From Alcanivorax sp. DP30 (GTDB taxonomy: Bacteria > Pseudomonadota > Gammaproteobacteria > Pseudomonadales > Alcanivoracaceae), in NCBI RefSeq assembly GCF_009882945.1, contig NZ_WTUY01000005.1, forward strand, positions 435,046-475,861: a stretch of 40,816 nucleotides of DNA, in the 5' to 3' direction. A program made the translations under genes and the position numbers. The stretch's first letter is position 1. Every line of letters begins with the position of its first letter. This document shows, one piece after another, positions 4,981 to 37,863 of the stretch. Below the pieces are notes generated by a model. That model did no database searches and was not told the origin of the DNA. It saw only the letters and a list, made by a program, of their open reading frames with translations.

Positions 4981-5388
4981 CTAAAAGGGGATGTCTGAGT
5001 CGGTCTCAAAATCGTCTGCCGGTGGCTGGCCGCCACCCTGAGCCTGTGCCCGGTTCTGCTGTGGCTGCTGGTCGCTACTCGGCGCATCACCCTGCAGCTC
5101 AATCTCGCGCATGATGACCTCAACGCTGGTGCCCTTGCTGCCGTCATTGCGCTCAAACTCACGCACGCGCAGCTCCCCGGAGATCGTGGCCTTGCCGCCT
5201 TTGCGCATGTGAGGGCACAGCTTTTCGCCGCGCTCACCGAACAGCACCACGGTCAGCCAGCTGGTGTGCTTGTTGTCGCCCCAGCCAGAATCCACCGGGC
5301 AGCGCACTGTAGTGATTGGCTTGCCAGCTTGCGTGTACTTCGTTTCTGCGTCCTGCCCGAATCGGGTGGTGAATGTCAGAATGTTCAT
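4981..5388 (-). CDS. ssb: Single-stranded DNA-binding protein
   Basis: A 135-residue SSB. The OB-fold region spans about residues 1-100 (MNILTFTTRFGQDAETKY..., TSWLTVVLFGERGEKL, GKATISGELRVREFE), followed by a flexible Q/G/P-rich linker and the acidic C-terminal tail ending DSDIPF, the hallmark peptide by which SSB recruits partner proteins. It coats single strands during recombination and replication. It lies next to the exonuclease and RecT genes, forming a compact single-strand-annealing cassette. Shine-Dalgarno GGAGAG precedes the ATG. Confidence 0.92.
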   Translation of the reverse strand: MNILTFTTRFGQDAETKYTQAGKPITTVRCPVDSGWGDNKHTSWLTVVLFGERGEKLCPHMRKGGKATISGELRVREFERNDGSKGTSVEVIMREIELQGDAPSSDQQPQQNRAQAQGGGQPPADDFETDSDIPF

Positions 5389-5420: not shown

Positions 5421-7034
5421 CTACGCCACTCGCTGCAATTCCTGCTGATTCATTTCCAGCACCCAGGCGGCGGCGGTATGCACGTCCACCTGAAACTCGG
5501 CGGCGATGGCGCGGAGAATGTCCTGGTCGTTGGGGCGGAAAGGCTTTTCTTCGGCCTTGTATTCGGCGCGCGGCTCGCTTTTCACCTGTTCGGCTACTGG
5601 TTCAGGATCGGTTTTTTCGGCGAGCTTGCAGGCCATTGATTCGGCCTCAGCTTCACGCTGGGCTTGCGCCTGAGCATCAGCCTTCTGCTGCGCTTCGCGC
5701 TCTGCCTTGGCCTTTTCCTCGGCAGCGATGCGCTGGCGTTCAGCCTCCAGGCGGCGCTCTTCTTCCTGCTTGTGGCGTGCAATGCGGCTCTCGACTTCCA
5801 GCTTCACCAGTTCGCTGTCTTTCAGCGCAAGCTGCTGCCGGTCGGCGAACAGGAATTCGTAACCAGCCTCGGAAATGATCTTGGCGTTGACCCGGATCGC
5901 GTCGGCATATTCATTGATGGCGATCTTCGCCCGGGCCACTTCGTTGTCGGCGGCATCGCGCAGGGTGGCGATGGTGCGCTTGCCCTTCATGGCTTCGTTA
6001 AAGTCCGTGGGGACGCGGGGGAGGGTGTAGCCGTCCAGCGTGGCCTGAACCTTGGCGCCGTGGTCTTCGACGGCCTGTTTGCCGTCCTGCGCAATCTTCA
6101 GCTTGATGGCCCGCTTCTGGCTCTCCACCAGCTTCTCGGCCATCAGCCTGTTCTTTCGGGTCAGCTCCTGCAGCATGTCCTTGCGACGCTTGGCTTTGTC
6201 CACGGTTTCAACCTGGGATAGCAGTTGAGTCTCAGCAGCGTCCAGCGCCTCTTCTGCCTTCTTTAGCTGCTTGACCTGACCCTGCAGGGTGGCAAAGTCA
6301 TCATCCGTCTGCGGGTCTTTCACCAGCACCTCATCCAGGAACAACTTCAGCGATTCTTCAAAGCGGTCGAAGTTGTCCACGATGAAAAGCTCGCCGGACA
6401 CCTGAACAGATACAGCCGGCAGGTCTTCGGTCACCGTGGCGGTAGCTGGCCGCTCCTGCTTGCGCGGCTGGTAATCGGCCAGGTCGGCCCGGAACTGCTC
6501 CCAGCCTGCCTTGATGGCGGCCAGACGCTCGGGCGTAGTGGTGTACCAGAAGTGATTGCAGTCATCGGTGGTGCCGTCGCTGGCCATGAACAGGCATTTT
6601 TCGGCACCGCTCACCAGCAACTGCTGATCCATCTGGATTTTGTAATGCTCGTCCAGGGTATCCACGGTTGCCGAGCGCAGCGTGTCATTGATCAGCTTGT
6701 GCTCCCAGATCACGTCTTCCAGCATGGTCACGCCGTCGAAGCTGGCCAGCAGAACGCCGTCATCATCCAGCGCAGTGGCCGGAAACAGCTCTTCCCCGAT
6801 GATTTCCTCGGCAATAGGCCGCGCAGCAGCTTCAGCGGCGTGGCCACGGTCAAAGATGGCCTGCTGGGCCGGGGTGACTTCCTCGGCCATGCCGGTGGCT
6901 TTCTGCTCCATCAACGCGGTGCGGGTCTGGTACTTGCTCTTGCCCATCATCGCCGGCGCTTCGCTGGCGGTGTTGTGATTGGTGCGCAGGGCTTTCCATT
7001 CCGGGCTGCCCTGGGTGACGTTTTGAATCTGCAT
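5421..7034 (-). CDS. YqaJ/lambda-exonuclease fused to long coiled-coil domain
   Basis: Protein of 537 residues, more than twice the size of lambda exonuclease. Residues 1-190 are a YqaJ-type alkaline exonuclease: GSPEWKALR at 9, catalytic D100 in SFDG, E111 and K113 in WEHK, and QMDQQLLV at 134-141. It would chew 5' strands of double-stranded ends for RecT annealing. Residues about 210-480 are helical and strongly charged (ELTRKNRLMAEKL..., and an EEERRLEAERQRIAAEEKAK coiled coil), like DUF1351-type proteins that accompany exonucleases. The last ~50 residues form a small helical domain. The gene follows recT by two bases and has GGGGAA before its ATG. Confidence 0.88.
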   Translation of the reverse strand: MQIQNVTQGSPEWKALRTNHNTASEAPAMMGKSKYQTRTALMEQKATGMAEEVTPAQQAIFDRGHAAEAAARPIAEEIIGEELFPATALDDDGVLLASFDGVTMLEDVIWEHKLINDTLRSATVDTLDEHYKIQMDQQLLVSGAEKCLFMASDGTTDDCNHFWYTTTPERLAAIKAGWEQFRADLADYQPRKQERPATATVTEDLPAVSVQVSGELFIVDNFDRFEESLKLFLDEVLVKDPQTDDDFATLQGQVKQLKKAEEALDAAETQLLSQVETVDKAKRRKDMLQELTRKNRLMAEKLVESQKRAIKLKIAQDGKQAVEDHGAKVQATLDGYTLPRVPTDFNEAMKGKRTIATLRDAADNEVARAKIAINEYADAIRVNAKIISEAGYEFLFADRQQLALKDSELVKLEVESRIARHKQEEERRLEAERQRIAAEEKAKAEREAQQKADAQAQAQREAEAESMACKLAEKTDPEPVAEQVKSEPRAEYKAEEKPFRPNDQDILRAIAAEFQVDVHTAAAWVLEMNQQELQRVA

Positions 7035-7036
7035 GA

Positions 7037-7951
7037 TTATTCCCCTTGCTCCACGGCCAGCACCTGCTGCGCCTGTTCTTCGGTCAGCGGCGCCTTACTG
7101 GCCACCATGTCGATAATCTGCTTGCCGGACTTTTTGCCCGCTTGGATAAGCTGGGCCCACTTTGGAAAATTGGCCGCAAAGTCCTCTGCCGGGTAATGGG
7201 GCAGGGCCTGTGGCTGGTCGGCTTCACGCGGTGTAATGTCGCGCTCCTTCCGGTTGTTGAACTCGTACATCCAGTTGTCATTGCCCAGCATTTCCATGAT
7301 TTCACTGCTGTTCGGCAGCCGGCGGGCCAGGCGATGAAGGGCGGACTTCAGGGCCATGCGCTCAAACCAATCTTTCCAGGGGCCGTAAGCGCCGGTCTTG
7401 CTGGCGGAGCGCACTTTCTCAACGTCTGCCATGGTCATTGGCTCAACGATTACGTCCCCGGTCTTCATCCTGGCCATGGCGTAAACCAAGATCATGGGCC
7501 CGCGGTCACCGGCAAAATTAGGGCGGTGCTTCAGATGCTCGCCATCCTCGTCCACCCAGTAATCAAACTGATCGTTCTGGTGAACGGCACGGGCCGTTAT
7601 TACGGAGACTTCGCCAGACTGGCGCGCGCGCTTGAGAACACCATCCACCATTGGCATGTACTGGATTTTCTGGACCCAATTCGGGTTATCCCGGGTGCCG
7701 ACATTGGTATTAAACTGAACCAGTGCGGCCTCCCTGTTGTCCGGCACAAGGCCATCGCCTGCGCAGCGCTGAAGGCTGGTAAAAAGGCTCTGGCGGTCCG
7801 CATTAAGCAGATCTGGGTTGCTCTGGATGGCAATCATTGCCGTCTTGATGAATCGTTCCACCGGAAGGTGATCAGGCAGGATGGATTTCAGCTCTTTATG
7901 TTGAGCCTGTATCTCCTGCTGGAACTGCTGTATGGGTGCAATCGCGTTCAT
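7037..7951 (-). CDS. recT: RecT family single-strand annealing protein
   Basis: 304 residues from the ATG at 7951, which follows AAGGAGCAGAGC; the open frame extends further but lacks an initiation signal. RecT features: SLQRCAGDGLVPDNREAALV at about 65-84, YMPMVDGVLKRAR, ITARAVHQND, GPMILVYAMARMKTGD, and the C-terminal KSALHRLARRLP. The protein anneals complementary strands and works with the adjacent YqaJ exonuclease, a standard two-component recombination system. It is the first large gene of the leftward operon after four small ones, so expression is expected early after induction. Confidence 0.95.
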   Translation of the reverse strand: MNAIAPIQQFQQEIQAQHKELKSILPDHLPVERFIKTAMIAIQSNPDLLNADRQSLFTSLQRCAGDGLVPDNREAALVQFNTNVGTRDNPNWVQKIQYMPMVDGVLKRARQSGEVSVITARAVHQNDQFDYWVDEDGEHLKHRPNFAGDRGPMILVYAMARMKTGDVIVEPMTMADVEKVRSASKTGAYGPWKDWFERMALKSALHRLARRLPNSSEIMEMLGNDNWMYEFNNRKERDITPREADQPQALPHYPAEDFAANFPKWAQLIQAGKKSGKQIIDMVASKAPLTEEQAQQVLAVEQGE

Positions 7952-8727: not shown

Positions 8728-9021
8728 TTACGGCTCCATCCGTTCTTTGGCTTCGGCTTCCAGGTACTCGCGGGCAGCGGCCCGGAATTTCTCTGCGTCC
8801 ATCATTTCGCTGATAACTTGATCCCGGATGGCGCGGAATTCCGGCTTCCAGCACAGCGCCTTCCACAGGTCTTCAGGCTCAATCAGGTGGCCAGCGCCAG
8901 TGGTTTGCAGCGCCTCTTCCTCTTCGCGCTGGAATTCTTCACCGGCTGCGCTTTCGAGAATGTCCGCGCCATGCAGTGCGTCCTGATAATCCCAATCGCT
9001 GTTGAAGTTGCGTGCTTCCAT
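8728..9021 (-). CDS. First gene of the leftward operon, unknown acidic protein
   Basis: A 97-residue, strongly acidic protein (EEFQREEEEAL in the middle, EYLEAEAKERMEP at the end) with GGAG six bases before the ATG. It is the promoter-proximal gene behind PL, so it is made first and most during induction. The high negative charge could mean DNA mimicry or interaction with a basic host protein, but there is no recognisable domain. Confidence 0.6.
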   Translation of the reverse strand: MEARNFNSDWDYQDALHGADILESAAGEEFQREEEEALQTTGAGHLIEPEDLWKALCWKPEFRAIRDQVISEMMDAEKFRAAAREYLEAEAKERMEP

Positions 9022-9055
9022 GTCTGGCTCCGGGCTGTTCGTTTAGCGTGGAACC

Positions 9056-9100
9056 AGTATCAACCAAAAGTTGACATTAAGTCAACAACCAGATGTTGAT
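9056..9100 (-). promoter_or_regulatory. PL promoter with operators OL1 and OL2
   Basis: On the minus strand, TTGACT (complement of 9080-9085) and GATACT (complement of 9056-9061) are 18 bp apart and read toward the leftward genes. OL1 (9059-9075, ATCAACCAAAAGTTGAC) covers the -10 side and OL2 (9084-9100, AACAACCAGATGTTGAT) covers the -35. Both match the RTCAAC-N5-GTTGAY rule of the three sites near cro; centres are 25 bp apart. A lone half-site GTCAAC lies at 9115. Repressor binding here would silence the leftward operon. Confidence 0.75.
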
Positions 9101-9193
9101 GTTTTCAGGAAAAGGTCAACTTGGCGCAAAATGACCATGGAATTCTGTGGGCAAGAAAGAAGGTGTTGGCGCGCAGAACAGGATTGCGGGCAC

Positions 9194-9216
9194 AAAAAAA
9201 ACCCGCGCTTGGCGGG
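9194..9216 (-). terminator. Intrinsic terminator of the lysogeny transcript
   Basis: Read on the minus strand: CCCGC, five-base loop, GCGGG, then eight Ts. It lies just past the stop of the 300-residue gene at 9243 and before PL, so it isolates the repressor transcript from the leftward operon. Confidence 0.8.
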
Positions 9217-9242
9217 CTTGGTGGCGCTAGCGTAGTGCGGTT

Positions 9243-10145
9243 TTATTCAGCGCGCGCGTCAGAGATGTACAGGGTGTGAATCTCGCCGGCTTTCAGTACA
9301 GGCTTGGCCGTGATTCGGAAAGGCGTCTGCTGGTCAAATGAGTGGGTATAGACGTTGCCGGGCTGATCCAGCGTTGGGTCGGTGATTTTCCCTTTCAGTA
9401 GCCCCTCATACTGCTCGACGGTAATCTCGCACCGGCCTGTATTTCTGTTCAGACTGCTGATCGAAAGGCACCGCATTTCTTGAGAATTTTCGACAATAAG
9501 GTCGTCCGTAGACTTGATAGCCTTGGCTTCAGGTTCGGCAATCACCGTTGGCGCCTTGCTGTCTGCATTCTGAACGAGCTGCGAACAGGCCCTGCCTATA
9601 GGGGCCACCATGGTGCGCCCGTGATTGCGGTTATTATCCGCCAGTTCCGGGAGCATCCTTATCAGCGTCTCGTGCAGCGAAGCCAAGTTGTCATTGGACT
9701 TTACAAGGCCATTTGCCAGGATCTGCTGTGTGTCTGAGCTATTTTCAGCCAGCTTGGTGATCGCCTCCGCAAGCTCCTTCACAACATCCTCCTTAGAGTC
9801 TCGTGTCCATATTTCCTTGAGGGAGTCTATCACCATCCAGAACAGGGTGGACATTGCTTCTTTGTATGAAGCGACAAACAAATTTCCATCGGCCAGAGCT
9901 GGGGCGATACACATTATCGCTTCCAGGGACCCCTGTTTGGGAGCGGCAGTGAAGCAGAGAAATTCTTTCTTGTAATTCCCCTTCGGCACTTCACCAAAGA
10001 CGCAAAAATGCGCAGTAGCAGTATAAATGCGTGCTGCGGCGGCTATAGACTCGCCGAACATTGCTGCATCCATGAAGTGATGATCTGTCTGCTTCCCCTG
10101 ATAAGAAATCTTGAATGGAGTGACAATATTATTGTTTCTGTCCAT
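9243..10145 (-). CDS. Unknown 300-residue protein in the repressor operon
   Basis: Not confidently recognised. It reads in the same direction as the repressor, 59 bases behind it, and ends at a dedicated terminator, so it should be expressed in the lysogen. The N-terminal ~130 residues (FKISYQGKQTDHHFMDAAMFGESIAAAARIYTA..., then KKEFLCFTAAPKQGSLEAIM) resemble an uncharacterised domain I associate with prophage and accessory loci, in which an early GK-x-H-x-MDA pattern precedes an alpha/beta fold. The middle is a helical or coiled stretch (about 115-170), and the C-terminal ~90 residues look beta-rich (CLSISSLNRNTGRCEITVEQYEGLLKGKI). No membrane segment or signal peptide, so cytoplasmic. The context fits lysogenic conversion, for example superinfection exclusion or defence. 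Confidence 0.75.
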   Translation of the reverse strand: MDRNNNIVTPFKISYQGKQTDHHFMDAAMFGESIAAAARIYTATAHFCVFGEVPKGNYKKEFLCFTAAPKQGSLEAIMCIAPALADGNLFVASYKEAMSTLFWMVIDSLKEIWTRDSKEDVVKELAEAITKLAENSSDTQQILANGLVKSNDNLASLHETLIRMLPELADNNRNHGRTMVAPIGRACSQLVQNADSKAPTVIAEPEAKAIKSTDDLIVENSQEMRCLSISSLNRNTGRCEITVEQYEGLLKGKITDPTLDQPGNVYTHSFDQQTPFRITAKPVLKAGEIHTLYISDARAE

Positions 10146-10204
10146 TTCCCTGCTGTCCCTCCAGGGTAGTTATTTTCTCCTCGCCCGTCCTGCGGATGAG
10201 GGCG

Positions 10205-10897
10205 CTACATTGGGTCGTATTTCCCGATGACGACGCCGCATATGGACCAGTCGCCATCAATCCTGATTATCGGGTCCGGCCATTTGGGGTTTCCTGGCTT
10301 CAGGAAGTATTCACCCTCAGAAAAAGACAGCTGCTTGAGTGTAACCTTAAGGTCGCTGTGCCGCTTGGCAACAACGTACTTGCCCGGGTCAGGACTCCGG
10401 TCCGGATCAATAATCACTATTTCGCCGTCACATATCCGGGGGTCGTTGCTTTCGCCCTCTACCCGCAAAGCATATGTATTTGGGCCAGCCGAGGGAGGCC
10501 GAAAAGGAAGCCAGTCATCAGCATCGCCAGGCTCAAACGGATCTTCAGCGTCGCAAAATTCCCCTGCTTGAATGTAGCTAATAATGGGGATTCCGCCTGG
10601 CTCCGTGGCATTCGAATAGGTGCCAATCTCATCGCCGACAGCAAATACCCCGTACAGCATATAGTTCGGCTGGATATTAAATATCCCACATAGTAATTGC
10701 ATGTTCAGACGATCCGGCATGCCCGTGCCGTCCAGCCACTTATGTACGCCCTGAACGCTTATCTTGCCGCCGGCAGCCTCTATTTCACGCTTAAGCCGAG
10801 GCGCACGGCCTCTTGCCTGCCATCCAGCTTTGTCCATTTGCTCGACTAGCCGGGCAGAAAACGCCTCACGGATAGCCTGAGTATCTGAGTCAACCAT
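10205..10897 (-). CDS. CI/LexA-like S24 phage repressor
   Basis: 230 residues from the ATG at 10897, inside an operator; the frame is open further upstream but runs through the promoter region. The N-terminal ~60 residues hold a helix-turn-helix (ISVQGVHKWLDGTGMP, 46-61). The C-terminal half is an S24 self-cleaving peptidase: probable scissile A111-G112 in SYIQAGEF, nucleophile S150 in VEGESNDP, general-base K188 in KVTLKQL. It maintains lysogeny by binding the 17-bp operators at both PR and PL, and RecA-stimulated autocleavage would link induction to DNA damage. The weak Shine-Dalgarno and the operator over its start suggest tight autoregulation. Confidence 0.93.
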   Translation of the reverse strand: MVDSDTQAIREAFSARLVEQMDKAGWQARGRAPRLKREIEAAGGKISVQGVHKWLDGTGMPDRLNMQLLCGIFNIQPNYMLYGVFAVGDEIGTYSNATEPGGIPIISYIQAGEFCDAEDPFEPGDADDWLPFRPPSAGPNTYALRVEGESNDPRICDGEIVIIDPDRSPDPGKYVVAKRHSDLKVTLKQLSFSEGEYFLKPGNPKWPDPIIRIDGDWSICGVVIGKYDPM

Positions 10898-10962
10898 GCG
10901 TTGATTGTCGCATAGGGGTTGATCAACAGTCGGTTGCTGTTTAATATCAACTAAAAGTTGAT
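10889..10962. promoter_or_regulatory. Right operator region, three 17-bp repressor sites
   Basis: Three inverted repeats of the same design: 10889-10905 (GTCAACCATGCGTTGAT), 10922-10938 (ATCAACAGTCGGTTGCT) and 10946-10962 (ATCAACTAAAAGTTGAT, perfect arms). Centres are 33 and 24 bp apart. The first covers the repressor start codon, the other two overlap PR. The pattern copies the lambda OR1-OR3 arrangement with a different recognition word. Confidence 0.82.
10919..10947 (+). promoter_or_regulatory. PR promoter for cro and the right operon
   Basis: TTGATC at 10919-10924 and TAATAT at 10942-10947 with a 17-bp spacer; transcription would begin near 10954 and the Cro ATG is at 10977. Two operators overlap these boxes, so repressor would block it. 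Confidence 0.7.
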
Positions 10963-10976
10963 GTTCTGGAGCCGTC

Positions 10977-11243
10977 ATGGCCATTTCTAAATTCATTTCT
11001 GATGACCCTCTTGCTGAGGCTGTGGCCCTGGCTGGCGGACCCATCCCTACAGCTAAAGCCTGCAGCGTAAGCCGTCAGGCCGTTGACAAGTGGCTTGCCC
11101 GTGGCCAGCTGCCCCGGACTGATTACACCGGCGAGTCGTCGCACGCAAAAGCCATTGCCTCATTGGCAGGCGAGCAGGGCGCTGAATTTTCAGCCTCTGA
11201 TCTGCTGGAAGCCCTTAAGGAAAAGGCAAAAAACGCCGCATAA
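10977..11243 (+). CDS. Cro-like / YdaS-type transcriptional regulator
   Basis: An 88-residue protein encoded divergently from the repressor, 79 bases away. Residues about 16-45 contain a helix-turn-helix, AKACSVSRQAVDKWLARGQLP, of the type seen in YdaS/Cro proteins. By position it is the lytic-side counterpart of the repressor, probably binding the same operators with a different order of preference. Translation starts with TGGAG five to six bases before the ATG. YdaS-like proteins are sometimes named antitoxins, but no toxin partner is next to it. Confidence 0.85.
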   Translation: MAISKFISDDPLAEAVALAGGPIPTAKACSVSRQAVDKWLARGQLPRTDYTGESSHAKAIASLAGEQGAEFSASDLLEALKEKAKNAA

Positions 11244-12454: not shown

Positions 12455-13300
12455 ATGGCTCGTGCCCGCAATATAAAGCCGTCCTTCTTCGATAACGACA
12501 ACTTGGCCCTGCAGAACGATCCGCTGGGCCGGCTGCTGTTCATCGGGCTGTGGACCCTGGCCGATTACAACGGGAATCTTGAGTGGCGCTCTCACCGTAT
12601 CAAGGTGAAGTTGTTGCCCTACGATGAATGCGACGTGGAACAACTCGCGATAAATCTGGATAAATCTGGATTCATACGGTTCTACTCGGACGGCGAGAAA
12701 GTTCTGCTCAATATTCCGAATTTCACCCTTCACCAGAACCCGCACAAGAATGAGAGGGATAAAGGTGCTGCTGTTCCTGAGTACAGCGAAGAGCGCCGCC
12801 AACTCATTGATATTTCTACACTCACGATAAATCGCGATAAATCCCGAGCGAATCCAGATCAAAACGGAACTGATCCTGCTGATTCCCTCTTCCTGAATCC
12901 TGAATCCTCTTTCCTGAATCCTGATTGCGGAAGCCCGAAATCGGAAGACCCGCCTCCTGCCGGAGACGAGGGGGCGGGCAAGCCGCCCAAGCCCAAATCG
13001 AAAATCACCAAAACCGACCTGATTAACGATTTCGGAATCCCGGAAGAGCTGGCCGTGCAGTTCCTGCAAATCCGCAAGGACAAGCGGTTAACCCTCACGC
13101 CAAAAGCCATGGAAGACCTGGTCAATGAATTCAGGAAAGCGGGTCTTGGCGTATCCATGGGTATCGAGCTTTGCTGCAAGCGCTCCTGGGCAGCATTCAA
13201 GGCGTCTTGGGATTGGCGTCCGGCCAGTTTTGGCGACGAGAAATCCTTCACTGAAACCGATTACAGCAAGGGAGTGACCGCTGATGGTCGACTCGCGTAA
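12455..13300 (+). CDS. O-like phage replication initiator
   Basis: 281 residues. The N-terminal ~105 residues (RNIKPSFFDNDNLALQNDPLGRLLFIGLWTLADYNG..., IPNFTLHQNPHKNER) form the winged-helix domain typical of phage replication initiators that are followed by a DnaC-like loader. A low-complexity linker (about 125-180, with the repeat LFLNPESSFLNP) leads to a C-terminal helical domain (LINDFGIPEELAVQFLQIRKDKRLTLT...) that resembles the partner-binding part of such proteins. The gene contains two sets of short DNA repeats, so the origin is probably inside it as in lambda O. Its stop overlaps the start of the loader gene by 17 bases. Confidence 0.82.
   Translation: MARARNIKPSFFDNDNLALQNDPLGRLLFIGLWTLADYNGNLEWRSHRIKVKLLPYDECDVEQLAINLDKSGFIRFYSDGEKVLLNIPNFTLHQNPHKNERDKGAAVPEYSEERRQLIDISTLTINRDKSRANPDQNGTDPADSLFLNPESSFLNPDCGSPKSEDPPPAGDEGAGKPPKPKSKITKTDLINDFGIPEELAVQFLQIRKDKRLTLTPKAMEDLVNEFRKAGLGVSMGIELCCKRSWAAFKASWDWRPASFGDEKSFTETDYSKGVTADGRLA
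12646..12927 (+). other. Putative replication origin, iterons inside the O-like gene
   Basis: GATAAATC occurs four times, in two pairs, each 10 bp apart: 12649 and 12659, then 12826 and 12836. Downstream, CCTGAAT-type heptads recur at 12892, 12899, 12913 and 12920, all offsets multiples of seven. Lambda carries its iterons inside O at an equivalent position. The repeats encode unremarkable linker residues, so selection at DNA level is plausible. Confidence 0.6.
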
Positions 13301-14045
13301 AGCAGAAAACCTGATCCCGTTCAGCCTCCGTGATCTGCCGGAGCCGGGCGACATTCGCAATCAGCCGGTGATGATGACCTGCGAGCACCACGGCAAGTGG
13401 AAGCGTCAGGAAACCATGGACGGCCAGGTGATTTCCCCGGACTGCCCGCAGTGCATCCAGGATCGCCGCATGGCCACCGACCTTGGCCGGGCAGCTATCC
13501 CGCCGCGCTACCAGCACCGCTCTCTGGAAACGTATCAGGTCGAAGGGCCGGGCCAGAAGCAGGCGCTGGAGGTGTGCCAGACCTACGCCGGGAACATCAA
13601 GCGCACACTGGCAGAGGGTCAGAACATGCTGCTGATTGGCTCCGTGGGTACCGGCAAGACGCACCTTGCCTGTGGCGTTGCTCGCCGCTTTCTGGAGTCC
13701 GGCCACACCGCGCTGTACGTCCGCACTGCCGAGCTGATTTCCATGGTTCGGGAGACCTGGCGCCCCGATTCCAAGAAAACCGAGCGCAGGGTTATGCGCG
13801 AGCTGACTGATCCGGACTTGCTGGTGATTGACGAAGTGGGCGTGCAGGCCAACACCGAAAACGAGCAGCAAATTCTGTTCAACGTCATCAACGGGCGTAA
13901 CGAGCAAATGCGACCCGTAATCCTGATTTCAAATCTGGACGCCGAAGGCATCAAGAAGGTGCTTGGTGAGCGTTCCTCTGACCGGATCCGGGAGTGTTGC
14001 CGGGTCGTGCAGTTCAACTGGCAAAGCTGGAGGGGCAAGGCATGA
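13284..14045 (+). CDS. DnaC-like AAA+ helicase loader
   Basis: A 253-residue IstB/DnaC-type ATPase, functional analogue of lambda P. Walker A is GSVGTGKTH (119-127), Walker B is LLVIDEVG (179-186), a sensor-like ILISNLD follows at 213-219, and a conserved arginine region SSDRIRECC lies at 231-239. The N-terminus has a probable zinc site (C33, H35/H36, C54, C57). It would bring the host replicative helicase to the origin marked by the O-like protein, whose gene it overlaps by 17 bases. Confidence 0.93.
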   Translation: MVDSRKAENLIPFSLRDLPEPGDIRNQPVMMTCEHHGKWKRQETMDGQVISPDCPQCIQDRRMATDLGRAAIPPRYQHRSLETYQVEGPGQKQALEVCQTYAGNIKRTLAEGQNMLLIGSVGTGKTHLACGVARRFLESGHTALYVRTAELISMVRETWRPDSKKTERRVMRELTDPDLLVIDEVGVQANTENEQQILFNVINGRNEQMRPVILISNLDAEGIKKVLGERSSDRIRECCRVVQFNWQSWRGKA

Positions 14046-32282: not shown

Positions 32283-32693
32283 ATGGCGGTAATCATTTAC
32301 ACGGCAAGGCGCGGCCTCGTTGCCGGCCACACTGCCGGCCAGTCCTATGAGCTGGAAGTTGGGATCGAGAGCGTTTCGCCCAGCTTTGACCGTGAGGAAA
32401 ACACGCTCACCACGCTATCCGGCAAGGACTACACCACGTTTTACCGCATTGAGGAACGGGACAGCTTCAGCACAGTGGCCATAGACGATACGGCGCTGCT
32501 TGCTCAGTTGCGTGAATTCGTCATGTCTGTTGCCGCTGGGGAGCCGTTCACGATGGACCTGATGGGCGAGTCGGGCAGCCCTGTGGCCCCGGTCAGCTAC
32601 AAGTTGCGCGGCAACCCCAGCAAGCGACTGGTGAACTCTGCCGGCTTCTACTCCTACTCATGGCAAGTGAAGGTGTTTGATGAGAACCCATAA
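32283..32693 (+). CDS. Tail tip component, minor tail protein
   Basis: 136 residues from the ATG at 32283, behind TGGAGAAAAC; an ATG at 32268 in the terminator tail is less likely. Protein is beta-rich (AVIIYTARRGLVAGHTAGQSYELEVGIESVSPSFDREENTLTTLSG...) and resembles short distal tail proteins found between the tape measure and the tail hub genes. It overlaps the start of the hub gene by 14 bases. Precise identity within the tip complex is open. Confidence 0.65.
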   Translation: MAVIIYTARRGLVAGHTAGQSYELEVGIESVSPSFDREENTLTTLSGKDYTTFYRIEERDSFSTVAIDDTALLAQLREFVMSVAAGEPFTMDLMGESGSPVAPVSYKLRGNPSKRLVNSAGFYSYSWQVKVFDENP

Positions 32694-35600
32694 CAGCGCC
32701 TTTGGCTCTTTCAATGTCGGCCAGACCCGCGAGCCGCGCTTTGTTATCGAATTCGACTTTGGCGGCGGTGATTATCACTACTTCACCAGCCATGAGGTGG
32801 ATGGGCTCTCTGGCGCCAACGTGACTGATGGCGTGCTGACCCGCGTGGACAGCACCAGCCAGAAGCTGGACCCGGACAAGGCCAACAGCAAGATTGGCTC
32901 CATGACCGTCCGCATTGCGGATGATGGCCTGACCGAGCTGCAGCAAGCCAAGCTGAACGACGACAAGGGGCTGCGCGGCAAGCGTGTGCGCTACTACGCT
33001 GGTTTCTTGGGCCTCCCGTGGTCATCTTTCGTCCTGGTGCAGACCCAGCTGATCCAGGGCGCCTCCTACAAAGAGCAGGAATACACCTTCAAGTGTGCTG
33101 ATATTCAGCGCCAGATGCGTGATGACATCTTCGTCTTGAAGGAAACCACGCTCAGTGCCTCACTGGCTGCGGATGATACGGAGATTGAGGTCTATTCCGT
33201 CAATGGCCTGCAGCTGGTTAAGCAGCCCGTTAGCCCGTCTGGCCGGACCCTTGCCAGCGGGAAAAGCATCTGCCTGGTGAGGCTTGAAGGTGAGAATGAT
33301 GCCTTTGAAATCGCCATGGCAGAGGAGATTGACGAGAGCACCAACACCCTCAAGCAGGTGACTCGTGGCGTCCTGGGGACCACGCCGCTTACCATTGAGG
33401 TGGACCCAGACGAAAAGCGCGACAATGCCCCCAAGGTAACCGAATACGTCTATCTGGACATGCCGGCCCCTATGCTGGCTTATGCGCTGCTGACCGGCTC
33501 TATCTATGGCTATCCCGGCGAATACCTGCCGGACCACTGGCATATGGGTGTAGGCCCTGAGTTCATCCGTACGTCTGAATATCTGAATATCGGGCCAGAC
33601 CTTTGGGACGTAGACAGCTTCGACGATGGGCTGTCTGCTCAGGTCTCAGGGGTAGAGAAGGAGAGCGGCAAGAAGTTCATCGAAGAGCAGATCTTTCGCA
33701 TGATGGGCTGTTACCCGCCTATCTATTCGGATGGCCAGATTGGCCTGCGCCGCATGACCCTGATCCCCTCCCAAAGCGGGTATGTGCGGGAGCTGAACGA
33801 GGACCATGTGCTGTCCCCGGCCACTCTGACCCATGACATGGGCGGGATGATTAACGACATTCTGGTCTATTGGAACTGGAACCAGCGCAAAGAGGCCTAC
33901 ACCCGCGTAAACCGCCTGCTGGATTCGGGCTCTATCGAGCGCAACGGTCAATCTGAAACCCTTGAGATTGAGTTCCGCGCCCTGAGTGCTGAGCGCCACA
34001 CCTACACCACCATCAAGAACATCCTCGACAGTCTGCGGGATCGTTACGCCGGCCCTCCGCTTCGCCTGTCACTGGACCTCTCCCCCGAGAACAACGATCT
34101 GGAAGTGGGCGATATTGTCCGGGTGAATCTGGGCGGAATTAAGGACTACAGCACCGACCAGGTGGACGTGACCCTGAACCGAAATTTTGAGGTGCAGCAG
34201 GTCAAGGTGGACTGGCAGACCGGCAAGGTAACGGTTGACCTGTTCGGGTCCAGCCAGCGGGCCAGCGAATTGCCGGTGGACCAGTTTGGCTCAGCATTAC
34301 CGCTCAGCTGGTATCAGAGTGAAGGCACCGAGATCAGCGCGGCCAACTTCCCTGGGGCTGTCGTAGAGAGCACCGGCGAGCGCCACATCACGGCGGACAT
34401 TACCCTGGAAGGTCACGCCTCGATTGCCGACGACACGGCTATTTACTGGTGCCCGGAAGACCTGACCATTGATGGGGGCGTGACAGTCACGCTCACCAAG
34501 AATGTGCAGCTTCGTGTGGCCGGCTACTTCCAGAATAATGGCACTGTTGACGGTCGCGGTCAGGGCCAGCCTGGCGGGGCCGGGGTTGACGAACTGAGCA
34601 TTGACCCTATCTATTCCGCGCGGTACTTCAAGTGGAATACTGACAACAAAGGGCTGCCCGGGTATCTGCGTGCCGAGTCTTTGCCGCAGTCGCCAAGCGT
34701 CATGATTCAAGAAGACTCTTTCAGGGACTATCGATGGGTATATGTTTCTGACCAGGCGTTGGATTATGCGCTTTTCGGCAGCAACGCGCTGGAGGACTCC
34801 TTTTCTCAGCTGCCCCCGGTAGGAGGGCTGGTTGTAAGTGCTGCCAGGTCAGGGCTTGATGTTGTGGATGGCGAGCTAAAAGGCCTCCCGGGATACCTAT
34901 GGGGCGGGAGCGGCCATGGCGGCGGCCCTGCGGGCAAGCGCCCATTTTCGCCCTTTGAGCTGTCGTATCTTGGCCCTGGTGGTGACGGCGGCAACTCAGG
35001 TGCAGGGCTGGCAATTACCTGCCGCGGCTTCTCTGTGGGGGATAACGGCCTTTTTGACCTGTCAGGCGGTGATGCTCCAGAGCCGCAAACCTTTTATCAG
35101 GCCGCAAGCTGGGCGCGGGCCTACCCTGGAACAGGTGCGCCTGGCGGTCCCGGTGCCCTGTATTTCGTTATGGACGGCGAGACCGCTATTCCTGGGGATC
35201 TCACCGAAGGGAACTTCCACGCATTCTATGGCGCCGCTGCGGTCCCGGGGCATCAGGGCACCAGAGGAACGAACTCTCTTGGATTTTTAGGGAATTCCAT
35301 ACCGGGAGCGTATAACTACTACGAAAATTCCAGCAATGAAATCCTCTCGCCTTTGCAGAGCCCCCAGCCGCTTCCTCTGAATGTTTGGCAGTCAGCGTAT
35401 GTGGTTCATCAGCTAACAGGTTCAATCGCTGCCACCCCGGACATTCCTGAAGAGACAGAGAACCCGGTTACGGTGACCATTGCCGAGCTGACCAACACTC
35501 CACGCAGCGCCAATGCCAACCTTTCCACGATTGAGGTGGCAATTCAGCCTCCAAGCGTTAGTAGTTACAAATACGCCCTGGTGGAGTACCGGGAGAAGGG

Positions 35601-37863
35601 TCAGGAGGGCTGGTTTGAGGTGGGCCCGGCCTCTCCTGAAGTCGGCTTTGTTGTCCCGAGTGACGGCAAGACCTACGAAATCCGTGCGCGTGGTGTATCG
35701 CTGGCCGGGAATGTTGTGCCTGATGCCCCGATTCAGGAAATCACCACCACCAAGATCCTGAATGCCGACCCGGGCGACGAGGATGTGGATGATGTGGTGG
35801 AGGTGCCGAACGTCCATGGCCTGGAGCTGTTCGAGCAGGGTAATGATTCCGTATTTGGTGGCCGTGACGCTAAGTTCGTGTGGCGCAAGACCAGCGTTAC
35901 CGAATGGCTGGAAATGGGCAGCGAGGGCCAGCTGGGGGCCTCCCGTGGCTCTCTGGACCTTTACTTCAAGGATTACCAGGTAGAGGTCTGGGTAGGCGGG
36001 TCTCTGGTTCGGACAGAATGGGTTGTTGACCCTGCCTTCGTCTACACCTACGAGAAGAACGCCGAAGACTATGCGCGAGAGCAGGGCCAGGCGGGCGCGT
36101 GGCGTGCGTTTGAGTGCCGCGTGTACTGCCGGGGCCGCCAGAACCAACTCAGTGCACAGGCCGCGAAATTGCCCGTGGAGAACGTGGCGCCAGAATTGCC
36201 CGACGCAATCACGGTATCCGCCAGCTTCCGTTCTCTTCAGATCGACTATGACCCGCCGGAGGATCTGGATTACAAGGAAACCCGTGTCTGGCTCAGCCAG
36301 AGCGAAGGATTTACCCCTGACCCGGCCAATCAGGTGGCGCAAGCCTACGGCGGGCCAGTGATTATCGCTGGCCTGGCGGACAACACAGAGTACTTCCTGC
36401 GCTTCGCGACCTATGATGCCTTCGGGCAGGGGAGTTTAAGCCAGGAATTCAGTGTCACCACTCCCAGCCTTGCGGCTGCCGAGGTGGATGGTCTGAGCCC
36501 CTGGGCCACGGTTACCGACGCTGACAAGGCGTTCATTGATGCCAACCTAGAAAATGACGCCATCGACAGCACCAAGATCGTCAAGCTGACGGCCTCCAAG
36601 ATTGTGACCGGCACTCTGGCCGCCACCGAAAAAATTAGCGTTGATGGTCAAATTGAGAGCGTAGTTGGCGATGCCGTTGCCACAATTGGCCCCAAGGCCA
36701 CGGACGGCAAAACCGGCATGGTTACCTACCAGTACGATGGCACCACTCTGTTTGCTGTTTATAGCGACGGCAGCGCGGCCTTCTCTGGTGCGGTGACCAT
36801 CACCAACGGCAGCGGCTATGCCAACCTGAGCGACAAGCCAAGCTCCTTGGCCGACATTAACAGCGGGGAAGGTGGGAAGCTTAGTGGCGTTGAAACTGGC
36901 GCCACTGCTGGCGCTGATTGGTCCAGCAATCTGTCCAACATCCCCAGCAGGCTGGGCGATACGCCAAGCACGGGCTTGAACCTCACCGCCACCCACCTGG
37001 GTTATTACGATGGCTCTGACTGGCGCGCATTCATCGAAAACGATGGCACCTTCTACTTTGGTGACGGCGATCAGAAATACCTGAAGTTTGACGGCACCGA
37101 CTTCACTGCTGGCCGTGAAACTACGCTCATAGGCGTGGATTCATATAACGGCAGGAAGCTATATGTTCACGACAACTTCCTCACAGCCTTTGTTCCTGAT
37201 GATAATTTCAGCGTAACCGGAGCTCCGAGTGCGGCTCTCAATCGAGGCAGGTATTCGCTGTGGCTTGAGACAAGCGAGAATGGGGACGATGTTGAATTTT
37301 ATCATTATGTTCCCCAGTACATTATTGATCAGGCAGAGGCAAGTTCTAACTTTAGGATGAAGGTGGGCTTCTCCTTCGGCCATGGTGCAAACGGATCATA
37401 TGGCTTTGGCGACAATGTAAACACAATAATGAATATGAAGCTGTTCTCCTGCAGGGACAGCGGCGCGAACTTTTGCCAGGCCCAATATGAAGTGGAAAGT
37501 GACTGGGCATATGCCGGATCAGGGAGCGATAGAGAGTACACCACCACTTATCGTGTCAGGTTTCGCCAAGGCATAACAACCGAAACCAGGGTTATTGCAA
37601 CAGAAACAGGAACGGTCCCCCCTGCCTCAGTTATTGCGCCGTCTCTTGGTCAGTTCTACGGGGTTGAATGCTTTGTTGATCTTGAAAATGATGAGGTGAC
37701 CATAAGCACACCCAATGGCGAAGAAACCTTCGCCCTGACCAGTACATACACAATCAACGACTTCAGCCCCGGGGATGCACTGAAGGTTTCTCTTGTAACC
37801 ACAGGCAACCGGACAATGGAAGCGGAAGCCCACCTCAGCGATTTCTATTTCATGCAGGAATAA
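32680..37863 (+). CDS. Giant tail hub / adhesin protein (J-like)
   Basis: 1,727 residues from the ATG at 32680. N-terminal ~520 residues look like a tail-hub protein: VTDGVLTRVDSTSQKLDPDKANSKIGSMTVRIADD, ECADIQRQMRDDIF-like FKCADIQRQMRDDIF, and LEVGDIVRVNLGG. Next a beta-rich segment (DITLEGHASIADDTAIYWCPEDLTIDGG) and a glycine-rich zone (about 625-835) with runs such as GGSGHGGGPAG and GPGGDGGNSGAG. Two to three Fn3-like domains follow (about 925-1260). The C-terminus (1260-1727) has repeated short beta motifs and ends in LSDFYFMQE. It would form the host-contacting tip fibre. Confidence 0.88.
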   Translation: MRTHNSAFGSFNVGQTREPRFVIEFDFGGGDYHYFTSHEVDGLSGANVTDGVLTRVDSTSQKLDPDKANSKIGSMTVRIADDGLTELQQAKLNDDKGLRGKRVRYYAGFLGLPWSSFVLVQTQLIQGASYKEQEYTFKCADIQRQMRDDIFVLKETTLSASLAADDTEIEVYSVNGLQLVKQPVSPSGRTLASGKSICLVRLEGENDAFEIAMAEEIDESTNTLKQVTRGVLGTTPLTIEVDPDEKRDNAPKVTEYVYLDMPAPMLAYALLTGSIYGYPGEYLPDHWHMGVGPEFIRTSEYLNIGPDLWDVDSFDDGLSAQVSGVEKESGKKFIEEQIFRMMGCYPPIYSDGQIGLRRMTLIPSQSGYVRELNEDHVLSPATLTHDMGGMINDILVYWNWNQRKEAYTRVNRLLDSGSIERNGQSETLEIEFRALSAERHTYTTIKNILDSLRDRYAGPPLRLSLDLSPENNDLEVGDIVRVNLGGIKDYSTDQVDVTLNRNFEVQQVKVDWQTGKVTVDLFGSSQRASELPVDQFGSALPLSWYQSEGTEISAANFPGAVVESTGERHITADITLEGHASIADDTAIYWCPEDLTIDGGVTVTLTKNVQLRVAGYFQNNGTVDGRGQGQPGGAGVDELSIDPIYSARYFKWNTDNKGLPGYLRAESLPQSPSVMIQEDSFRDYRWVYVSDQALDYALFGSNALEDSFSQLPPVGGLVVSAARSGLDVVDGELKGLPGYLWGGSGHGGGPAGKRPFSPFELSYLGPGGDGGNSGAGLAITCRGFSVGDNGLFDLSGGDAPEPQTFYQAASWARAYPGTGAPGGPGALYFVMDGETAIPGDLTEGNFHAFYGAAAVPGHQGTRGTNSLGFLGNSIPGAYNYYENSSNEILSPLQSPQPLPLNVWQSAYVVHQLTGSIAATPDIPEETENPVTVTIAELTNTPRSANANLSTIEVAIQPPSVSSYKYALVEYREKGQEGWFEVGPASPEVGFVVPSDGKTYEIRARGVSLAGNVVPDAPIQEITTTKILNADPGDEDVDDVVEVPNVHGLELFEQGNDSVFGGRDAKFVWRKTSVTEWLEMGSEGQLGASRGSLDLYFKDYQVEVWVGGSLVRTEWVVDPAFVYTYEKNAEDYAREQGQAGAWRAFECRVYCRGRQNQLSAQAAKLPVENVAPELPDAITVSASFRSLQIDYDPPEDLDYKETRVWLSQSEGFTPDPANQVAQAYGGPVIIAGLADNTEYFLRFATYDAFGQGSLSQEFSVTTPSLAAAEVDGLSPWATVTDADKAFIDANLENDAIDSTKIVKLTASKIVTGTLAATEKISVDGQIESVVGDAVATIGPKATDGKTGMVTYQYDGTTLFAVYSDGSAAFSGAVTITNGSGYANLSDKPSSLADINSGEGGKLSGVETGATAGADWSSNLSNIPSRLGDTPSTGLNLTATHLGYYDGSDWRAFIENDGTFYFGDGDQKYLKFDGTDFTAGRETTLIGVDSYNGRKLYVHDNFLTAFVPDDNFSVTGAPSAALNRGRYSLWLETSENGDDVEFYHYVPQYIIDQAEASSNFRMKVGFSFGHGANGSYGFGDNVNTIMNMKLFSCRDSGANFCQAQYEVESDWAYAGSGSDREYTTTYRVRFRQGITTETRVIATETGTVPPASVIAPSLGQFYGVECFVDLENDEVTISTPNGEETFALTSTYTINDFSPGDALKVSLVTTGNRTMEAEAHLSDFYFMQE

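Follow-up and report, generated by a model that had tools for sequence, protein, structure and literature searches.

Accessory genes are commonly found in the cI-N interval, rexAB and bstA among them, according to the available portions of two papers (PMC7067206, PMC8585504), and the slot behind cI thereby already holds two studied exclusion systems (PMC8585504, partial text). The same partial texts describe bstA of prophage BTP1 as lying 3' of cI, read from the cI promoter and closed by a terminator of its own, and bstA homologues as frequently sitting behind repressors (PMC8585504, PMC7067206). An effect on the lysogenic switch itself is also on record: 434 Hex shares its PRM mRNA with the repressor and blocks RecA-mediated repressor cleavage (PMC3564112, partial text), and RexA is reported to bias the lambda switch (PMC11077077, partial text).

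The window analysed here, a stretch of 40,816 nt from Alcanivorax sp. DP30, holds an integrated phage with integrase, RecE-/RecT-type, terminase, major capsid and tape-measure genes and a lambda-like immunity region. The subject of this work is the gene behind its repressor (9243-10145, minus strand; ATG start, 300 aa), which encodes a DUF7946-DUF7947 protein homologous to phi80 gp40A. An earlier note on this DNA had tied the gene to the repressor transcript and proposed that it may alter the host of the prophage. Its observation is confirmed and its interpretation partly supported, with transcription in the lysogen deduced from sequence. Overall, we suggest, with somewhat better than even confidence, that the locus is a lysogeny-expressed accessory (moron) cassette of the immunity region that would protect the lysogen against other phages.

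Layout of the immunity region

The accessory gene follows a CI/LexA-type repressor gene (10205-10897, minus strand) on the same strand at a spacing of 59 nt, in agreement with the order and direction seen earlier. The repressor ORF, which ends at 10205, has a Peptidase_S24 match (5.8e-20, Pfam); its probable start was put at codon 28 of the longer frame 10205-10978, because that frame would cross operator-like sites. The divergent Cro-like gene (10977-11243, plus strand) has weak YdaS and P22_Cro matches, both under cut-off. Repressor and accessory gene are flanked on either side by operator-like clusters that have a 17-bp site in common. The exact 17-mer ATCAACYAAAAGTTGAY is found on the plus strand at 9059-9075 (OL side) and at 10946-10962 (OR side). 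A second plus-strand site on the OL side (9084-9100) has 3 mismatches to the 17-mer and 1 to the half-site pattern, and the OR side has two more plus-strand sites, at 10922-10938 (1 mismatch to the half-site pattern) and 10889-10905 (half-site pattern, no mismatch). With up to 3 mismatches, the 17-mer gave 4 matches versus 0.22 expected, one of the four being a site already counted, read on its other strand; the pattern was derived from these very sites, so the match count is not an independent test. The arrangement is that of lambda, where cI-rexAB lies between OR and OL, and of phi80, where cI-40A lies between the annotated operators and 40A holds the cI-pL position that the window gene holds here.

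The gene ends at an intrinsic terminator-like GC hairpin followed by an 8-T run (9199-9219, minus strand). Beyond it lies a PL-like promoter (TTGACT-18-GATACT; 9056-9085, minus strand) that overlaps the OL sites, so that an eight-T terminator does separate the gene from PL, as the earlier note had it. Folding energy of the hairpin is not exceptional versus shuffles (z -0.91, 40/200 shuffles as good); we call it a terminator because of its stem, T-run, position and recurrence behind homologues, of which 41 of 54 distinct downstream regions have a terminator-like hairpin 3' of the gene (a count made with no shuffle control). Eight of the nine homologues that have no upstream repressor also have no hairpin, the exception being L022, and the hairpin is missing as well in five homologues with a repressor (L077, L082, L083, L090, L096). 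A promoter scan of 8900-11100 found one site, the leftward PL-like one, versus 1.8 expected from shuffles; it returned no promoter of the gene's own and also missed PRM. On the minus strand, no second ORF of at least 60 aa was found between the accessory gene and the PL-like site.

Two other parts of the prophage gave side observations. A 1728-aa ORF located 3' of the tape-measure gene (32677-37863) has weak PHROG matches (best 1.8e-8) and no Pfam match, and is likely a tail protein. Where lambda has O and P, the prophage (12455-14045) has a 281-aa ORF with no Pfam match, followed by an IstB/DnaC-like ATPase gene.

Protein family, predicted fold and remote relatives

The earlier note had treated the gene as unknown; the family is in fact catalogued. 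The protein matches DUF7946 (PF25678; 1.6e-19, 71.1 bits) over residues 11-210 (9516-10115, minus strand) and DUF7947 (PF25679; 7.7e-20, 71.2 bits) over residues 227-298 (9252-9467, minus strand), each against a Pfam gathering cut-off of 27. With both domains in order and above cut-offs, the window protein is, judged by sequence, a member of the DUF7946-DUF7947 (phi80 40A) family; both domains were above cut-off in 10 of 10 family members scanned with Pfam. It also matches PHROG 5147 (2.6e-15), which carries no assigned function. The closest annotated phage protein is that of phi80 gene 40A (AFV29182.1; about 23-24% identity, 95% of length, E 5e-7), which has the same two domains in order, a similar length (288 versus 300 aa) and the same slot. 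Two features set the window branch apart from the phi80 branch: its helical middle has a 14-residue insertion, and it lacks the glycine-rich hydrophobic helix of the latter. The 'acetate kinase superfamily' label on the phi80 record is unsupported, since Pfam shows no such match. In the open-licence literature searched, DUF7946, DUF7947 and PDC-S42 were not mentioned by any paper, no function was found, and no study of phi80 40A was among the matches listed.

Near-identical copies occur in two viral contigs, L003 (100%) and L004 (97%), and a sister group (L082-L096) has 32-36% identity to the window protein. In a tree of 28 rows, the window protein, L004, L082, L088 and L093 are grouped (support 100/98) within a 25-row DUF7946 set; its deeper neighbours, L117 and L118, are long branches whose placement is unsure. 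The family is sparse among the sampled genomes, which include the own one: of 17 genomes of the genus only the own genome has PF25678, as do 4 of 369 from the class, and profile A3 matches 5 of 398 from the phylum. Protein queries with P0006 or L025 against viral contigs, and with P0006 against phage records, gave no relative. In L119 (12879-16071; genome G135), a DUF7946/DUF7947 gene lies between pieces that look Rhs-type by eye, with no evident prophage around it.

Comparison of the window gene with that of L004 gave dN 0.010, dS 0.093 and dN/dS of about 0.11, two multiply changed codons being excluded, and the gene looks to be under purifying selection. Broken or truncated copies make up 7 of 70 (L021, L070, L071, L072, L077, L091, L096), some of them maybe sequencing errors; such a share is as expected for a gene that would be accessory and dispensable. 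The same seven copies could suggest a passenger without function that is decaying in a recombination hotspot; the low dN/dS and the intact domains of all ten scanned members leave this reading very little probability.

AlphaFold2 models were built for the window protein (32 aligned sequences, mean pLDDT 84.3, pTM 0.67) and for a phi80-type protein (28 aligned sequences, pLDDT 81.3, pTM 0.61). Both have an N-terminal strand, a long helix and further strands, then a helical middle, and end in a domain with the order b-b-b-a-b-b, in agreement with the alpha/beta N-terminus, helical middle and beta-rich end read earlier from the sequence. The DUF7946 match covers the first two parts and the DUF7947 match the last, which as modelled (b1-b2-b3-a-b4-b5) is OB-fold-like in both proteins. 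Foldseek against the PDB returned no match under E 0.001 for either model. Among the matches listed, chains of CspA, eIF1A, IF1, LysRS, Teb1, ExoVII and SilF, which we take to hold OB-type folds, reached a probability of at least 0.9 (E >0.001); unrelated low-probability matches (proteases, receptors) are also among the top rows. BFVD gave three matches under 0.001, the best at 1.4e-7 and one of them bearing the name DUF6575 protein; their TM-scores are 0.26-0.41, and they suggest no function. A sequence search of solved structures found no relative, reaching E 0.068 at best with the protein and 0.19 with the profile.

The glycine-rich segment of the phi80-like branch and its nearest kin has a 19-residue hydropathy mean of 1.67-1.93. 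Elsewhere the best values are 1.49 in the window protein, at another place, 1.62 there in L004, and 0.8-1.15 in the sister group. Because of these values, a membrane role is possible in the phi80 branch and less likely in that of the window, which has no such helix and is probably soluble. The cytoplasmic location claimed in the earlier note accordingly fits the value for the window protein itself and is weakened by that of its near twin.

A remote resemblance is to a defence-candidate family, PDC-S42 of PADLOC, matched at E up to 0.1 by 17 of 32 aligned relatives (best 7.3e-6); the window protein itself matches no PADLOC family at E up to 1, PDC-S42 included. Profile comparison with hhalign gave a probability of 88.5% (P 2.7e-6, 233 columns) with a PDC-S42 profile of 3 sequences, versus 0.2% for RexA and 0.5% for repressors as controls. 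A second profile comparison, on overlapping alignments, gave 89.7%, and by eye PDC-S42 and LAPAL_fam resemble the DUF7946-DUF7947 proteins in the N-terminal motif, the hydrophobic segment and the beta-rich C-terminus. Three PDC-S42 members differ in having no Pfam match at E up to 0.01, DUF7946 and DUF7947 included, and form a long separate branch of the tree, away from the window protein. PADLOC matches to PDC-M63B (2/32 members, 0.0094) and TIR-NLR (1/32, 0.028) were treated as noise. In L115 (10177-12336), a PDC-S42 gene has a possible defence or mobile context: an N6-methylase/Eco57I-like gene at a distance of ~2 kb and a DnaB-type helicase gene at ~2.3 kb.

Linkage to repressors and repressor exchange

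We found a repressor-type gene upstream of the homologue, in the same direction and within 1.6 kb, in 67 of 70 distinct viral contigs, and within 350 nt in 58 of them; L018, L074 and L095 lack it. The 70 contigs are those left after removal of repeats from an IMG/VR set fished with phi80-like and window-like seeds. Regulators were picked by motif first and then checked with Pfam, which found Peptidase_S24 in 47 and HTH_3 in 43 of the 49 distinct regulators scanned (out of 50, L072 being left out; L023, among the 49, is non-viral). The census of homologues that the earlier note had called for is thus favourable to constant linkage, and the viral members found are not consistently structural or lytic genes. 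It is very improbable, in view of this linkage, of the strand of the window gene, opposite to that of the late genes, and of its own terminator, that the product is a virion or lytic-cycle protein. That reading follows the name 'putative phage structural protein' given to LAPAL_fam in NCBIfam, which the window protein matches weakly (0.003, 17 bits versus a cut-off of 60), and draws as well on L074, where the gene adjoins genes that look structural by eye.

Single-linkage clustering at 50% puts the 77 homologues (70 viral and 7 others) into 9 clusters; in 7 of these, one or more members have a regulator. Two clusters (L070/L071 and L096) probably stand apart only through frame-broken copies; when these are set aside, 7 clusters remain, 5 with a regulator. 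One phi80-like cluster holds 56 of the 77, and at 90% linkage there are 24 clusters, 19 of them with a regulator. Small additional ORFs, some of them hydrophobic, lie between the repressor and the DUF7946 gene in L079 (3139-3960) and L080 (3209-3960), one of which, an 87-aa ORF of L080, resembles a secreted HNH-type nuclease by eye and has no Pfam match. That place in L034 (3318-3758) is held by an ORF of 146 aa, which has a hydrophobic stretch at its N-terminus and likewise no Pfam match.

Among the seven non-viral homologues (bacterial genomes, a plasmid, a phage record), a repressor lies upstream in one only, and two further chromosomal homologues sit among genes that look like housekeeping genes by eye. 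Since the non-viral homologues mostly have no upstream repressor, the linkage is a trait of the phage-borne members. Chromosomal DUF7946/DUF7947 genes away from evident prophages would suit a host-fitness gene with no anti-phage role, acting by lysogenic conversion of metabolism, stress or surface, and the position behind the repressor would fit such a gene equally well. We consider this unlikely, given the possible remote kinship with PDC-S42 and given that no enzyme or transporter family is above cut-off for the window protein in Pfam or NCBIfam.

A comparison of the window with L004 delimits what moves. The 59-nt leader (97% identity), the gene (97%) and the terminator (94%) form an exchangeable cassette at 9194-10204 (minus strand), 94-97% identical between the two. 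On the repressor side, identity is 40% in the cro-like region, 43% in OR, 49% in the N-terminal and 64% in the C-terminal half of the repressor, and beyond the terminator (9101-9193) it is 43%. From this pattern, the gene acts as a cassette, recombining relative to the immunity genes that flank it on either side. The palindrome of L004 is also a different one, ATTAGATTTCTAAT, placed around repressor and gene at 5211-5224, 5235-5248, 7026-7039 and 7051-7064. When these sites are set beside those of the window (9059-9100, 10889-10962), operators, repressor N-terminus and cro appear swapped and the accessory gene kept. The two phages are probably, as far as their sequences tell, a natural heteroimmune pair.

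The same holds more widely. Of 84 homologue pairs with at least 75% identity, 59 have regulators less than 35% identical; the pairs come from 34 loci hand-picked from 68 with a regulator by thinning near-duplicates, they are not independent, and free end gaps let unrelated regulators score near zero, so that the count supports 'under 35%' and nothing finer. In E. coli, one protein accession was found behind two different, partly related repressors. This exchange bears on the possibility that the protein modulates the phage's own switch and acts on CI, on RecA-mediated cleavage or on the operators, like Hex or RexA. The gene is often in the presumed CI transcript, RexA (PMC11077077) and 434 Hex (PMC3564112) offer precedents in the parts of those papers available, and the modelled OB-fold-like domain could bind DNA. 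Nevertheless, close homologues mostly sit behind dissimilar regulators, four (L040, L042, L043, L077) lie behind a 131-aa HTH regulator with no S24 match, and the C-terminal half of the repressor has diverged in L004 far more than the gene. Switch modulation is therefore unlikely in our view. Repressor exchange would be unexpected if the protein had to touch its own repressor, and expected if it needed only a lysogenic transcript. As the repressor varies and L004 keeps the gene, it is probably an accessory gene and not an obligate CI partner. The earlier idea of a gene locked into the repressor transcript thus stands for the operon position and fails for the particular repressor, which is often exchanged.

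Likely role and comparison with known systems

Superinfection or phage exclusion is the likeliest role of the window gene, at slightly above an even chance, because of the cI-N slot precedents (rexAB, bstA) and the remote similarity to PDC-S42. On this exclusion reading, the resident prophage would express the gene from the CI (PRM) transcript, and the product, a single-protein superinfection-exclusion or abortive-infection factor, would shield the lysogen from other phages. The signal of infection, a nucleic acid or something else, may be sensed or bound by the OB-fold-like domain at the C-terminus, and oligomerisation or the effector function may lie in the helical middle; members of the phi80-type branch have there a glycine-rich hydrophobic helix that could insert in the membrane.

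The phi80 member offers a practical point of entry. Among 5426 complete E. coli genomes, 62 carry its gene (at least 80% of length and at least 99% identity), full length and 100% identical in all of the best 60 of the 62 matches. Laboratory strains and their derivatives are numerous among the carriers, which include DH5alpha, NEB 5-alpha, DH10B, TOP10, XL10-Gold, EPI300, GB2005 and JM83. In DH5alpha, 40A lies behind an S24 repressor with phi80-like neighbours, a region that is presumably the phi80 lacZ-M15 segment. Since the gene is in such widely held strains, the question of protection is readily testable, and an effect, if there is one, would matter for phage experiments that use them. A T4 isolate has been described to which DH10B is sensitive and a DH5alpha stock resistant (PMC5843723). 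DH10B carries 40A and is nonetheless sensitive, therefore 40A does not block that T4 isolate; as the cause of the resistance of the DH5alpha stock it was dropped, the T4-sensitive DH10B having the same gene (PMC5843723).

Tentatively, and as a possibility rather than an expectation, the DUF7946-DUF7947 proteins might be a phage-defence family that works as a single protein and is widespread in prophages of Pseudomonadota. They would then be a third kind of occupant of the rexAB/bstA slot, with a fold of their own (an OB-fold sensor and a helical, partly membrane-inserting effector), moving as a cassette across immunities, and with a phi80 member that has gone unnoticed in common phi80-carrying cloning strains and shapes their phage sensitivity.

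Other parallels are of position. Lambda RexA and RexB are encoded in the same place, behind cI and before OL, and RexA is of similar size (about 280 aa versus 300 for the window protein); however, RexAB has a membrane partner, RexB, whereas the window operon has no RexB-like second gene. Homology to RexA was rejected on sequence (hhalign probability 0.2%, P 0.28; one RexA sequence versus profile A5), and the RexA structure 8twq is absent among the best 50 of 860 Foldseek rows. The likeness to BstA is in position, the gene being 3' of cI in both, and in a terminator of its own and homologues often placed behind repressors; DUF7946 and DUF7947 are the only families above Pfam cut-off in the window protein. 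Compared by description, 434 hex overlaps its repressor gene and its product acts on repressor cleavage, whereas the window gene lies 59 nt away. The Gifsy prophage defence protein encoded near repressors (PMC12724215, partial text) has an ATPase domain and is hence not of the DUF7946-DUF7947 family. Set against these systems, the DUF7946-DUF7947 family, catalogued but with no function given in the papers found, fills a known accessory slot with a new type of gene; the family spans distant phages, moves between repressors as a cassette and has no sequence similarity to RexA.
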